In this document: positions 2,431 to 31,044 of the stretch, in pieces
Numbering within the stretch: the first letter of the stretch is position 1
Layout of the letters: every line of letters starts with the position of its first letter
NCBI GenBank assembly: GCA_002172675.1
Contig: NETF01000020.1
Coordinates: 1 to 64,000 of the forward strand
Length of the DNA: 64,000 bases
Source of the DNA: an unicellular cyanobacterium SU3
GTDB taxonomy: Bacteria; Cyanobacteriota; Cyanobacteriia; Cyanobacteriales; Microcystaceae
Reading direction: 5' to 3'
Notes under the pieces: generated by a model
What the model saw: the letters and a program-made list of their open reading frames with translations, nothing else
Databases searched by the model: none
Told to the model about the DNA's origin: nothing
Program-made: the position numbers and the translations under genes

Positions 2431-3384
2431 ATGGCTGAACCCTTCACAATAGGCGGACAAAATGGTTGGTATCATGATCAAGGACATTGGGCAGGTTATT
2501 TTCACACTTATGGTAATTTTAAACAATCTGATAGAGAAGCCAAACCGAGAATAATCCATGTATTCTTACCCAGAGATTATGAATATAGCCAAGAAAGCTA
2601 TCCTGTCATTTATATGAATGATGGAGATACCGCCTTTTTTTCTGGAGGTCAGTATTATAAAAGTTGGAACATGGGGCAGATTTTGACACGGTTATATGTA
2701 ACCAATCAAATTCGGCGAGTGATTGTGGTCGCCATTTGTCCCATTGACCGTAATTATGAATACACCCATGCCCCTATTAAAGAAGGAAATTGGGGGGGAT
2801 TACAAGGATATTCTGATTATATAGCTTTCGAGGTTAAGCCATTTATTGATAATAATTATCGGACCCTTGCTAGCCCCGAAAATTCGATGGTTTTGGGGTC
2901 ATCTCATGGAGGATTAGCTGCTTTTTATACAGCCATAAGACACCCTAAACAATTTCAATGTGTGGCCGCTCTGTCTCCTTCTTTTTGGGTAGGATTAGAT
3001 TCAATGATTGACCCTTGTTTCTTAGATTTATCAGGAGATTTATTAGGGTCACTGGAATATTCAGCCTTGATGTTTACTGGATTAAAAACCTTACAAAATC
3101 CGCAATTACAACCTAAAATTTATTTAGATTGGGGACTGATTCGAGAAGGAGGTTATCATAATTCTTTTATTGAAGCCAGAGCAACCGCAAGAGGCCGAGA
3201 AATGCGAGATTTATTAATAAATAAATTTGGTTATCGCTACAACGAAAATTTATTTGTGGTAGAAGACCCCATCGGCCAACATAGTGAAGAATCTTGGTCA
3301 GGACGCATGGAAACTGTCTTACCTAACTTTTTTGGTTGGCCTGCATTGATGAAACAGTTGTTAGCGCAACAGGCCATCTCCTAA
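2431..3384 (+). CDS. Putative esterase, alpha/beta hydrolase
   Basis: A 317-residue protein of the putative esterase family (esterase D, enterochelin esterase and S-formylglutathione hydrolase-like). It has the oxyanion and strand region YPVIYMNDGDTAFF, a nucleophile elbow GSSHGGL around residue 153, and a late histidine in IGQHSEESWSGRM that fits the third triad position. There is no signal peptide, so it is probably cytoplasmic. The natural substrate cannot be told from the sequence. It follows the DUF1499 gene by 51 bases in the same direction. Confidence 0.85.
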   Translation: MAEPFTIGGQNGWYHDQGHWAGYFHTYGNFKQSDREAKPRIIHVFLPRDYEYSQESYPVIYMNDGDTAFFSGGQYYKSWNMGQILTRLYVTNQIRRVIVVAICPIDRNYEYTHAPIKEGNWGGLQGYSDYIAFEVKPFIDNNYRTLASPENSMVLGSSHGGLAAFYTAIRHPKQFQCVAALSPSFWVGLDSMIDPCFLDLSGDLLGSLEYSALMFTGLKTLQNPQLQPKIYLDWGLIREGGYHNSFIEARATARGREMRDLLINKFGYRYNENLFVVEDPIGQHSEESWSGRMETVLPNFFGWPALMKQLLAQQAIS

Positions 3385-3464
3385 AAGCGAGGACTGAAAA
3401 TTGATGCTTGTCAATGACACTTGTGTGTGTTAGGATAATAAAGCTTGAAAAAATACAAAACTTT

Positions 3465-3535
3465 GCGGGTGTAGTTTAGTGGTAAAACCTTAGCCTTCCA
3501 AGCTAATGATGGGGGTTCGATTCCCCCCACCCGCT
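3465..3535 (+). tRNA. trnG: tRNA-Gly(UCC)
   Basis: A complete 71-base tRNA cloverleaf. The acceptor arms GCGGGTG (3465-3471) and CACCCGC (3528-3534) pair perfectly and are followed by discriminator T. The anticodon stem TTAGC/GCTAA encloses the loop CTTCCAA with anticodon TCC, and the T arm is GGGGG-TTCGATT-CCCCC. The terminal CCA is not encoded. Confidence 0.97.
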
Positions 3536-3592
3536 TTATTAAAAGAGATATGATAATTATGTTCAGATGTCATGGGAAAATGGCGATCGCTT

Positions 3593-4423
3593 ATGCTATT
3601 AGGGTTTCAATTTCAATCTCCAAGCCCCATCTTATTTGAAGCAGGGCCTCTAGTCATCCGTTGGTACGGTTTGTTAATTGCTAGTGCCGTATTAATTGGG
3701 GTAACACTCTCCCAATGGTTAGCCAAACGCCGTCACGTTAACCCTGAATTAATTGGGGATTTAGCTATTTGGCTGGTCATCGCAGCCATTCCTTGTGCCA
3801 GACTTTACTATGTAATCTTTCAGTGGCAAGAATACGCCCAACGGCCTGAAGATATCATCGCCATCTGGAAAGGAGGTATAGCCATTCATGGGGCCATTCT
3901 CGGTGGCATCATAGCCGCTCTAATTTTTGCCCGTTTAAACAAAATTTCCGTGTGGCAACTGGGAGATTTAGTGGTTCCCTCTTTAGCATTAGGGCAAGCC
4001 ATTGGTAGATGGGGTAATTTTTTCAACTCTGAAGCCTTTGGCGCACCCACTAATTTACCCTGGAAGCTTTACATTCCCGTTAACAATCGTCCCGTAGAAT
4101 ATTTGACATTTGAATACTTTCATCCGACATTTCTTTATGAGTCGGTATGGAATGTCCTAGTGTTTATTCTCCTCCTATACCTGTTTTTTTGGGGACTAAA
4201 GCATCCTAACCGCTTCTATGTGGGGACTTTATCTTTGGTGTATTTAATCGCTTATAGTTGTGGCAGAATTTGGATAGAAGCATTAAGAACCGATAGTTTA
4301 ATGTTAGGACCATTGAGGGTGGCACAGGTTATCAGTTTAGTTATGATTAGTGTAGGGATTTTGGGGCTAGTGTGGTTATATCGTTTAAAAAAACCTTTAC
4401 CAGACGTGGTTTCCCCTCAATAG
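3593..4423 (+). CDS. lgt: Prolipoprotein diacylglyceryl transferase
   Basis: Lgt transfers a diacylglyceryl group from phosphatidylglycerol to the lipobox cysteine of prolipoproteins, the first step of lipoprotein maturation in the inner membrane. The protein is about 276 residues with seven predicted membrane segments. It carries the family signature [13 protein letters not shown], the early IRWYGLLIA segment and HGAILGG, which holds an essential histidine. The frame is open from an ATG at 3572; I prefer the second ATG at 3593, giving [10 protein letters not shown], because cyanobacterial Lgt proteins usually start there. Predicted lipoproteins in the window, such as the one at 7097, would be its substrates. 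Confidence 0.95.
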
Positions 4424-28414: not shown

Positions 28415-29173
28415 ATGTTGTCTTTTGATACCCCTCAAACTCCCCCTAACCCTTCTGTGGTCAATACTCACCGCATCCTGGTGGTAGAAGATGAAGATGT
28501 GATCCGCGATATGATTGTTCTGGCCTTAGAAGATGAAGGCTATGATATCACTGCCGTCAATAATGGACGGAGTGCCTTAAATTTATTAGCAGAAGAAAAC
28601 AAAAATTCTAAGGGAACCGAAACAGAGTTTGATCTGTTAATTTTGGATTTGATGTTACCCCAAGTTAACGGTTTAGACATCTGTCGTTTATTGCGTTATC
28701 AGGGCAATATTATTCCTATTTTAATCCTGAGTGCAAAAGCCAGTGAAACAGACCGTGTATTAGGCTTAGAAGTGGGGGCTGATGATTATTTAACCAAGCC
28801 CTTTAGTATGCGAGAATTAGTGGCTCGTTGTCGGGCTTTAATTCGTCGTCAAAATTTAACCAATTCTTCTTCAAGTTCGGTCAAACAATTCCGTGACATT
28901 ATCCTTTATACCCAAGAATGTCGGGTCACGGTGGGAGACCAAGAAATTGGACTTTCTCCAAAAGAATATCGCTTATTAGAATTGTTTATGAGTTATCCTC
29001 GGCGGGTTTGGTCGCGAGAGCAACTGATTGAACAAATTTGGGGGCCTGATTTTCTGGGAGACACTAAAACCGTTGATGTTCATATTCGGTGGTTACGGGA
29101 AAAATTAGAACAAGATCCCAGTCAACCGGAATATTTAATTACAGTTCGGGGGTTTGGTTATCGTTTTGGTTAA
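28415..29173 (+). CDS. OmpR/PhoB-type response regulator
   Basis: A 252-residue two-component regulator. The receiver domain (about residues 18-150) begins RILVVEDEDVIRDMIVLALE, has the phospho-acceptor aspartate in LLILDLMLPQ and the lysine in ADDYLTKPFSMREL; it carries an internal acidic insertion (AEENKNSKGTETEF). The winged-helix effector follows, with LSPKEYRLLELFMSYPRRVW and TVDVHIRWLREKLE. It is not RpaA or RpaB, whose N-termini differ. A similarity to SphR-type phosphate regulators is possible but not certain. No kinase is adjacent. Confidence 0.88.
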   Translation: MLSFDTPQTPPNPSVVNTHRILVVEDEDVIRDMIVLALEDEGYDITAVNNGRSALNLLAEENKNSKGTETEFDLLILDLMLPQVNGLDICRLLRYQGNIIPILILSAKASETDRVLGLEVGADDYLTKPFSMRELVARCRALIRRQNLTNSSSSSVKQFRDIILYTQECRVTVGDQEIGLSPKEYRLLELFMSYPRRVWSREQLIEQIWGPDFLGDTKTVDVHIRWLREKLEQDPSQPEYLITVRGFGYRFG

Positions 29174-29177
29174 TGAA

Positions 29178-29420
29178 TTATTGCTCTGATAAAATAGCTT
29201 CCATTTCTTGAAATTCGGCGAGACTCTTTTCGGCTGCTTCTTGGTCTAAAATACTAAGGGCAAATCCCACATGGACAATTACATAGTCATCGATTTTTAC
29301 GTCAGGAACATAAGCTAAACTCACCTCTTTAATGACTCCCCCAAAACTTACTTTTCCTTTTCTCAGTAAAGGTTCATCTTCGCTAATACTAATTACTTTT
29401 CCAGGAACAGCTAAACACAT
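29178..29420 (-). CDS. hypC: Hydrogenase maturation chaperone HypC/HupF
   Basis: HypC delivers the iron-cyanide precursor during NiFe hydrogenase assembly, with its N-terminal cysteine as ligand. The start is the ATG at 29420, which gives MCLAVPGKVISISED, the invariant MC-A-P-K motif; the frame is open to 29483 but the extra 21 residues would mask that cysteine. The remaining protein is 80 residues, as usual. No other hyp or hydrogenase gene is in the window. It converges with the response regulator, the stop codons being four bases apart. Confidence 0.95.
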   Translation of the reverse strand: MCLAVPGKVISISEDEPLLRKGKVSFGGVIKEVSLAYVPDVKIDDYVIVHVGFALSILDQEAAEKSLAEFQEMEAILSEQ

Positions 29421-29544
29421 TATTTTTGTCTCGTTCAATTGAATACTAAAGCTTAATACTTTTTTTCTAACACAAGTTTTCAAAAAAAACTGTAATTAAA
29501 GGCTCTAATCTCTTATTCTTAATACGTTTTTTAGGTTTAAAAAA

Positions 29545-29637: not shown

Positions 29638-29754
29638 TTAAGCATCTTGTTCAATGTAGATAAATAAAAGTCCCATGACTACGATTGGCATGAGCCAAGT
29701 AACAACGGGAATTAAAATCCAAGGTAAGTAAGAGGCAGCATAAGCACCATTCAT
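29638..29754 (-). CDS. psaI: Photosystem I subunit VIII, PsaI
   Basis: A 38-residue single-helix photosystem I subunit. The translation begins [17 protein letters not shown], continues into [16 protein letters not shown] and ends QDA; all of this matches cyanobacterial PsaI, which sits beside PsaL and PsaM near the trimer axis. It is too short for routine gene calling. It follows psaL by 97 bases on the minus strand. The hairpin at 29545 marks the transcript end, so psaL and psaI form one unit. Confidence 0.95.
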
Positions 29755-29851
29755 GTGATTCTTCTCCTGTAAGTTGTTTTTTGAATTGGGTCAAGCACTT
29801 TTTCAAAAATTTGAAATTCTGAAAATCGAATTAAACCGTTTTCAGCGATGT

Positions 29852-30343
29852 TTAGTTAACTAAGCCACGGAAAATTGCATCAATAGTCGAAAACTTCTCA
29901 AGTAAGAAATAAGCCATAAAGGCACTACCAGTCCCACCTAAGAAAAAGCCACTAGCAAAGAGACTCCAACCTTCAGAGGTTTGCATCGCATCGGTTCCCG
30001 GTTCGCATTCATTAGCACTCTTGAGAGAAACTAAACCATGAGCATTGAGTCCAATGGTACCGATGATGACAATGGCCACTGCCGTTAAGAAAGCAGCTAA
30101 ATAGGGATCTGCGGGAAAATCACGGTTAGTACCGAAAACGACTTCAGGCCCAACTAAGAAATAACCATGAGCAAGGCCGACTTCTAAACCTCGTGCCAGA
30201 GGGGAAAGTCCTTTACGATAAATGGGTAAATTGTTAATGAAAGTTCTTGTAAAGCCAGAGTCAGAGATAGGGGTTGACAAATGACCAACAAAGGGGTCAC
30301 CTTTATAGGCTTTAACCATCTGGGTGTATCCAGTTTCTGCCAT
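29852..30343 (-). CDS. psaL: Photosystem I subunit XI, PsaL (major form)
   Basis: PsaL contacts its copies at the trimer axis of photosystem I. The 163-residue protein has the conserved head VKAYKGDPFVGHLSTPISDS, RTFINNLPIYRKGLSPLARG, EVGLAHGYFLVGP and the tail LLEKFSTIDAIFRGLVN. An AGGAGG-like ribosome site lies before the ATG. The middle loop reads FGTNRDFPADPYLAAF in place of the more common GPLRxSE motif. psaL is next to psaI rather than psaF-psaJ. A paralogue is transcribed divergently from 30571. Confidence 0.96.
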   Translation of the reverse strand: MAETGYTQMVKAYKGDPFVGHLSTPISDSGFTRTFINNLPIYRKGLSPLARGLEVGLAHGYFLVGPEVVFGTNRDFPADPYLAAFLTAVAIVIIGTIGLNAHGLVSLKSANECEPGTDAMQTSEGWSLFASGFFLGGTGSAFMAYFLLEKFSTIDAIFRGLVN

Positions 30344-30570
30344 TTTTCTTGAGTCCTCCTGATTTTGGTGAATAGGATGGCTTGACTTGTAAGATTACAT
30401 TTTAGGCAAGTAAGGGACAAGGGAAGGTTAATTTTGCCTTTAACGTAAAAAAAATTCATTAATTTTTGTATCTAAGTAAAGATTCTTTACATTTTGCCCT
30501 GAAAAGGAACAAAAAAAGCGGTAAAGTTAAGAACTGGTAAGCAATCATTAAAATCCAACAATTGATCACA
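30344..30570. promoter_or_regulatory. Divergent psaL / second psaL promoter region
   Basis: A 227-base interval between two divergently transcribed psaL genes must hold both promoters. Direct observations are AT-rich tracts, a TTTACATTTTG word at about 30487-30497 and an AGGAGG-like ribosome site immediately before psaL. No full pair of HLR1 half sites (RpaB binding) could be recognised by eye. Confidence 0.6.
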
Positions 30571-31044
30571 ATGGACATTATAAAACAGGGTGAAGATTCT
30601 AAAGTAGGCAATTTAGCCACTCCGATTAATTCTTCACAGTTGTCTCTTACGTTTATCAGAAACTTACCGGCCTATCGCAAAGGATTATCGGCTCATCGTC
30701 GTGGTTTAGAAGTGGGGATGGCTCACGGTTACTTTCTCTACGGACCATTTGCCATTCTCGGTCCTTTGCGTAACACTGAATATGCAAGCACTGCAGGTTT
30801 ATTATCCGCAGTTGCCATAATCTCTATTTTAACCATTGCTTTATCGTTGTACGCTTCTGTTGACGTAAGTCAACCCATAGAAACCTTAACCACTCCTAAT
30901 GTTCCTGAAGATTTCAGAACCTCTGTTGGTTGGGGTGAGTTTGCTAATGGTTTCTTTATTGGCGGTTCAGGGGGAGTTGTTTTTGCCTATCTTCTCTTCT
31001 GCCAAATTCTCTCTTTTGACTTAGTACAACAAATCTTAGGTTAG
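30571..31044 (+). CDS. Second PsaL-like photosystem I subunit
   Basis: A 157-residue PsaL paralogue on the opposite strand. It shares TPINSSQLSLTFIRNLPAYR, KGLSAHRRGLEVGMAHGYFL and a GPLRNTEYASTAGLL loop typical of many cyanobacterial PsaL proteins, and then diverges in its second half (DVSQPIETLTTPNVPEDF) and C-terminus (CQILSFDLVQQILG). The ATG at 30571 is preferred to the upstream TTG at 30562. Second PsaL copies are known from other cyanobacteria, for example far-red acclimation clusters; none of the other far-red genes is here. It may adjust PSI oligomeric state in some condition. Confidence 0.88.
   Translation: MDIIKQGEDSKVGNLATPINSSQLSLTFIRNLPAYRKGLSAHRRGLEVGMAHGYFLYGPFAILGPLRNTEYASTAGLLSAVAIISILTIALSLYASVDVSQPIETLTTPNVPEDFRTSVGWGEFANGFFIGGSGGVVFAYLLFCQILSFDLVQQILG

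Follow-up and report, generated by a model that had tools for sequence, protein, structure and literature searches.

Cyanobacteria with more than one PsaL have been described before. The accessible parts of earlier reports mention several PsaL copies in a single genome (PMC8760143) and second, paralogous PsaL copies in far-red (FaRLiP) systems (PMC10694217). In the portion of PMC8428864 available to us, the PSI of Cyanobacterium aponinum is described as trimeric without the Ca considered below, and a smaller number of long-wavelength chlorophylls is associated with the loss of the Ca site, PsaI Trp20, and PsaL Trp65. PSI trimers have also been seen in Crocosphaera watsonii, according to an excerpt of PMC13408156. 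Our analysis of a nitrogen-fixing cyanobacterium near Crocosphaera points to a different arrangement. We consider it likely that the locus is the product of an in-place swap, after which a foreign PsaL1 and its A-type PsaI most probably became the main pair and the native PsaL2 a minor or conditional subunit. In the open-access literature, we found no description of this psaL-psaI swap.

The locus consists of two intact and highly dissimilar PsaL genes standing head to head, with psaI located 3' of one of them (Table 1). The earlier note had reported two divergent PsaL types, one with psaI, at a spacing of 227 bases. Both points were confirmed in the sequence, the spacing when counted from ATG to ATG with psaL2 starting at 30571, a start that we prefer to the listed TTG at 30562. 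In the source genome, a draft of 5.6 Mb in 208 contigs, the PsaL matches were psaL1 and psaL2 only; psaA, psaB, and psaI each occur once, the psaI being A-type, and B-type psaI was not found there. The hypC-like gene that adjoins psaI does so in the other three genomes with psaL1 as well (G010, G048, and G001), and in G037 it stands beside a B-type psaI. The hairpin 3' of psaI is one of two hairpin and T-run sites in the window, a number near chance (1.4 expected). An OmpR/PhoB-type response regulator gene adjoins the locus in the window and in G010; its product scored under the cut-off of every NCBIfam model among the 25 listed, RpaB included.

Table 1. Features of the psaL-psaI locus, in positions of the window (the whole 64,000-nucleotide stretch of DNA that was analysed).
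Feature	Positions	Strand	Remarks
Locus	29638-31044		two PsaL genes and psaI
Response regulator gene	28415-29173	+	OmpR/PhoB type
hypC-like gene	29178-29423	-	adjoins psaI
Terminator-like hairpin	29576-29544	-	15 pairs and T run; 3' of psaI
psaI	29638-29754	-	38 aa; A-type (foreign); Trp at 12 and 20
psaL1	29852-30343	-	163 aa; A-type (foreign)
psaL1 upstream region	30344-30463	-	two donor-like blocks, 30442-30463 and, -10-like, 30395-30406
Palindromic element GTAAAGATTCTTTACATT	30476-30493	none	native; between psaL1 and psaL2
psaL2 upstream region	30494-30570	+	without TATACT box
psaL2	30571-31044	+	157 aa; B-type (native)

Family membership of all three products is secure. The two PsaL proteins reach 184 and 203 bits against a cut-off of 25 for Pfam PsaL (PF02605), and PsaI exceeds the cut-offs of both PSI_8 (PF00796; 42 bits versus 19.8) and NF008830 (79 versus 50). 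At the level of NCBIfam equivalogs, PsaL1 scores 265 bits (cut-off of NF001926, 231), while PsaL2, the only B-type PsaL scored, stays under the cut-off of all seven models listed (best 169 bits versus 240). Both proteins keep E52 and H57 (Synechocystis numbering) of the motif GLEVGxAHGYF, which we take to be chlorophyll ligands. With 46% identity over the aligned part, psaL2 is not a recent copy of psaL1.

The two proteins differ in the Ca-site residue and at the C-terminus. PsaL1 has Asp at the Ca-site position (D73 of Synechocystis, which binds Ca there between monomers) and a Synechocystis-like C-terminus, IDAIFRGLVN; PsaL2 has Asn and a C-terminus of another kind. The combination of an acidic residue at D73 with such a C-terminus, which marks the Ca-type trimer PsaL, was thus found in PsaL1 and not in PsaL2. 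Asp alone is not diagnostic: among B-type PsaL the position can be Asn, Ser, or His, and in the non-carrier G015 it is Asp, which also occurs in the tetramer PsaL of TS-821. At position 65 (Trp65 in the numbering used), PsaL1 has Glu. The swap supplies PsaI Trp20 and the Asp, but Glu instead of Trp at 65. The loop of PsaL1, FGTNRDFPADPY, had been called unusual; it recurs unchanged in Petrachloros, G330 and G681 have a similar one, and the white-light PsaL of Halomicronema has the extra residue as well. A simple division into trimer-forming A-type and non-trimeric B-type PsaL was dropped, since the PSI of C. aponinum contains a B-type PsaL and yet forms trimers, as the available part of PMC8428864 has it. 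The native pair likewise appears to support trimers if C. watsonii is without psaL1, as its absence among the contig-scan loci hints.

The distribution of psaI is evidence for replacement in place. Among 15 genomes of the lineage, the four with psaL1 (G000, G010, G048, and G001; hereafter carriers) have A-type psaI only and the 11 non-carriers B-type only. In non-carriers, psaI and psaL are divergent, and the B-type psaI product lacks Trp12 and Trp20 and is one residue shorter. When 14 genomes were searched with a B-type psaI alignment, the gene was found in all nine PsaL-bearing non-carriers (E of 1e-22 or better), and in all four carriers only the A-type psaI beside psaL1 matched; G011 had neither psaI type and no PsaL either. 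Local search recovered B-type psaI in G013 and G015, and A-type psaI was not found in any of the 11 lineage non-carriers having psaL. An initial reading that these relatives have no psaI at all was wrong; the divergent B-type escapes the Pfam model. Read from this genome comparison, the ancestral layout would have been a B-type psaI and psaL2 diverging from a shared element. A psaL1-psaI(A) operon, apparently bringing its core promoter along, would then have entered from a Petrachloros-like cyanobacterium and taken the place of psaI(B) as far as the native element, with psaL2 staying where it was.

The control region bears marks of both partners. The element TAAAGATTCTTWACATT lies between psaI(B) and psaL2 in all ten non-carrier intergenic regions read and is kept in the three unbroken carrier regions (G000, G010, and G048). 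It begins 95 bases upstream of the psaL2 start in these carriers; in non-carriers, the distance is 98-101 bases (five regions) or 208-281 bases (the other five). Overall, the element was present in 33 of 173 loci scanned, many of them overlapping, and was not in the loci of Petrachloros, G330, or G681. A relaxed pattern with three mismatches occurs once in the window against 0.04 expected. The suggestion of a shared control region was thus borne out by a conserved element between the divergent genes. A -10-like TATACT follows the element by 36-38 bases in nine of ten non-carriers, and is absent from all four carriers (by alignment in G000, G010, and G048, by eye in G001). On the other side, two short blocks upstream of psaL1 resemble those upstream of A-type psaL in Petrachloros, G330, G681, G569, G591, and G546, a likeness judged by eye from an alignment without a statistic and with G580 left out. 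We read the region as a chimera, in which a donor core promoter for psaL1 adjoins the native element, with the junction between 30463 and 30477. A general promoter scan returned one site against 4.0 expected. An HLR1 (RpaB) site was also considered and set aside, as 59 loose matches in the window compare with 70 expected; the claim is limited to a TTTACA half-site within the element. In G001, the pair is split: psaL1, psaI, hypC, and the element are on one contig, and psaL2 is on another without the element, with a transposase gene (DDE_Tnp_1) upstream.

A PSI monomer contains one PsaL. With one PsaI as well, PsaL1 and PsaL2 would have to compete for a single site. Any PSI containing PsaI would now use the A-type. 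The main pair is most likely PsaL1 and PsaI(A), which together offer Asp at the Ca site, a C-terminus like that of Synechocystis, and, next to chlorophyll B7, PsaI Trp20; PsaL2, without a PsaI of its own, would be less constrained and serve as a minor or conditional subunit. The faster evolution of psaL2 and its missing -10-like box suggest that psaL1 is the main gene. Between G000 and G010, PsaL2 differs at 17% of residues (dN 0.098, dS 0.48, dN/dS 0.20, or 0.17 over a shorter alignment), compared with 3% and a dN/dS of 0.043 for psaL1 and a dN/dS of 0.052-0.106 for psaL2 in ten congeneric pairs of non-carriers. The contrast fades in distant pairs (carriers 0.13-0.16; non-carriers 0.025-0.154 in the 35 pairs listed, G003 left out). 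Relative-rate tests, which share branches and use G001's own rpoC1 relatives as outgroups, showed carrier PsaL2 to have changed more in 67 of 72 cases (p<0.05; 18/18 each for G000, G010, and G048, 13/18 for G001), versus 0 of 36 for rpoC1. A set of 109 sites does not vary among nine non-carriers; at these, we counted 18 changes in G000, 16 in G010, 16 in G048, and 9 in G001, each including one alignment gap at the start; leave-one-out controls gave 0-5. Fast PsaL2 is not exclusive to carriers, because G003, a UCYN-A-like genome without psaL1, has 20 changes with gaps at these sites (the UCYN-A and Synechocystis labels on genomes are guesses).

Two further readings of psaL2 can be weighed against these rates. 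It is possible, though on balance we doubt it, that PSI is condition-specific, the idea put forward in the earlier note. Both PsaL proteins would then be in use, each in its own regime of light, iron, or day and night, and the two resulting PSI populations would not be alike in Ca binding, in the contacts within oligomers, or in red chlorophylls. Both genes are intact in all four carriers and under purifying selection, they share a conserved element, and the proteins differ in the Ca-site residue and in their C-termini. Furthermore, several PsaL2 changes are common to G000/G010 and G048, Glu119 to Val or Ile among them (G001 is without the Glu119 change). Against this stand the fast evolution of psaL2, its missing TATACT, and the severed link to the element in G001. 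The other reading, rather unlikely in our judgment, is that psaL2 is a remnant on its way to loss and the psaL1-psaI pair is fully in charge. The raised dN/dS in the close pair, the changes at the 109 invariant sites, the lost -10-like box, and the shortened C-terminus of PsaL2 in G010 would all fit. Yet psaL2 has no internal stop in any of the four carriers despite synonymous divergence of 0.48 to 1.54 between them, and its dN/dS of 0.13-0.20 is well below 1, so the gene is not simply dying. Given its intactness in all carriers, psaL2 may still have a specialised role alongside the main pair that we favor. A more specific proposal, unlikely and offered tentatively, is that two PSI populations share the borrowed PsaI and differ in PsaL, with a reshaped and specialised PsaL2, and that the borrowed pair is a mobile allelic cassette among relatives. 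PsaL2 could then serve, for example, in PSI monomers or in night-time and nitrogen-fixing phases, the reshaping being seen in the conserved TSEGW Glu, which three of four carriers have lost, and in the altered upstream region.

The preferred reading, a swap with psaL1-psaI as the newcomer, draws further on identities and on the PsaL tree. A contig scan returned three loci for PsaL1: Cyanothece sp. BG0011 (97%), Petrachloros mirabilis ULC683 (82%), and the Thermosynechococcaceae MAG MS004 (77%). BG0011 is counted among coastal Crocosphaera in the part of PMC11630315 that was available. Whole-genome searches over three overlapping sets (386, 388, and 29 genomes) recovered PsaL1 at 90% or more from the four carriers alone. 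The tree had 107 rows (103 distinct), with Anabaena PsaL left out. In it, PsaL1 of the four carriers forms one clade (support 100/98) that is sister to Petrachloros (98/80); together, they join G330 and G681 (100/97) and then the white-light PsaL of Halomicronema (100/98). PsaL2 groups (99/97) with B-type PsaL from 13 further genomes of the lineage, the three other carriers among them, and outside the far-red clade. By sequence comparison, psaL2 is the native gene and psaL1-psaI the newcomer, which looks borrowed from a distant cyanobacterium. This reverses the roles guessed in the earlier note, and the view of psaL2 as the odd acquisition is not supported. As to a vehicle, no PsaL1 relatives were found in phage records or in viral contigs, the latter scan reaching close relatives only, and the base composition of the insert showed nothing odd. 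A plasmid was set aside: the one match, a psaL at about 291194-291700 of plasmid AP018300.1 (Fischerella sp. NIES-4106), is 45% like PsaL1 and too distant.

These data also bear on whether the family started out with both PsaL types and lost them differentially, without any transfer, which we find highly improbable. The combination of A-side and B-side PsaL is not rare, occurring in seven genomes of the tree besides the carriers (G008, G009, G021, G022, G196, G330, and G681), and rpoC1 does not conflict with the way the carriers branch within the PsaL1 clade. Yet the family's other A-type PsaL are 52-63% like PsaL1 among the matches listed, versus 82% for Petrachloros, and A- and B-type psaI are mutually exclusive within the lineage (outside it, G681 has both). 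Forcing all 25 family A-type rows into one clade lowered the log-likelihood by 140 and was rejected (p-AU 5.9e-7), with the group chosen after the tree was seen and the bootstrap not fully settled. Other arrangements were seen in passing. In G681, a Petrachloros relative, an A-type psaL-psaI (L109, 2418-3152) and a divergent psaI(B)-psaL(B) (L094) are on separate contigs; an A-type psaL-psaI is convergent to psaA-psaB in G330 (L053/L142); and G676, of the Petrachloros order, has a tandem pair of B-side psaL (L111, about 2950-4000).

A single swap followed by vertical descent is insufficient, because carriers are scattered on the rpoC1 tree (no match in G015 and G017, only a fragment in G016): G000, G010, and G048 are in one clade and G001 in the other, with non-carriers in both. 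Exchange between relatives is needed. Synonymous distances between G048 and G001 are 0.44 for psaL1, 0.28 for psaI, and 0.76 for hypC, versus 1.25 for rpoC1 and 1.23 for psaL2; for psaL1 between G000 and G048, the value is 0.72 (rpoC1, 0.91). The genes are short, and we take this as a lead rather than proof that the cassette moves between relatives, perhaps via homologous flanks. The B-type PsaL of G012 (L014) and G035 (L019) are 96% alike even though their rpoC1 clades differ, so the native locus may move too. In three genomes of 2.8-3.1 Mb (G036, G039, and G040), psaL is broken by several stops, and these are perhaps non-photosynthetic endosymbionts. Relatives of the family also contain a PsaL domain within open frames of 506-521 aa (L004, L006, L009, L033, and L036, in G019, G021, G020, G008, and G009). 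These are probably IsiA-PsaL fusions; the open frames of 167 and 180 aa in the window are not of this kind.

If the preferred reading is true, the locus is a natural subunit-swap experiment in the PSI core of a nitrogen fixer, in which relatives of the same genus carry either the native B-type PsaI and PsaL or the foreign A-type pair. Among the residues that set the two pairs apart are ones linked to Ca binding and to long-wavelength chlorophylls, so the effects of PsaL/PsaI type could be compared across species. It would suggest that distant cyanobacteria can swap small subunits of the PSI core in pairs, with a chimeric control region, and would reveal the fate of the partner gene left behind.

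A far-red PsaL paralog is next to impossible here, for although such second copies are known, neither PsaL falls in the far-red clade (in the loci read, each of its seven rows adjoins psaA/psaB-like genes), the far-red-type PsaI of L104-L107 carry Tyr at the position of Trp20 in this PsaI (aligned by eye), and the absence of a psaA2/psaB2 pair from the window and the draft genome agrees with the observation that no other far-red gene is present. Among known systems, FaRLiP PsaL2/PsaI2 resembles the locus in that a second PsaL comes with its own PsaI in one genome, and differs in its psaA2/psaB2, its clade, and its PsaI Tyr. For PsaL2, the nearest solved PsaL is that of the C. aponinum PSI trimer (PDB 6vpv; PMC8428864, in the part available), which likewise has no Asp at the Ca site and has the other C-terminus, with Leu in place of Asn. 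PsaL2, although on the B side, does not fall with the tetramer-type PsaL of Chroococcidiopsis TS-821: its place is in the clade of its lineage (99/97), separate from the TS-821 row. For PsaL1, the nearest solved relative is PDB 6kmw, presumably the white-light PSI of Halomicronema hongdechloris; its PsaL likewise has the longer loop, as well as Glu in place of Trp65, and it is less distant (71-bit class) than Synechocystis, although of a different lineage. Closest in layout on the foreign side are Petrachloros mirabilis ULC683 (L052) and MS004 (L053), which have psaL followed by psaI as in the window, the same or a similar loop, and similar upstream blocks, but have neither the adjoining divergent B-type psaL nor the native element. 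On the native side, the divergent psaI(B)-psaL(B) locus of non-carriers shares psaL2, the element, and their position with the window, and differs in that psaI(B) stands where the window has psaL1-psaI(A).
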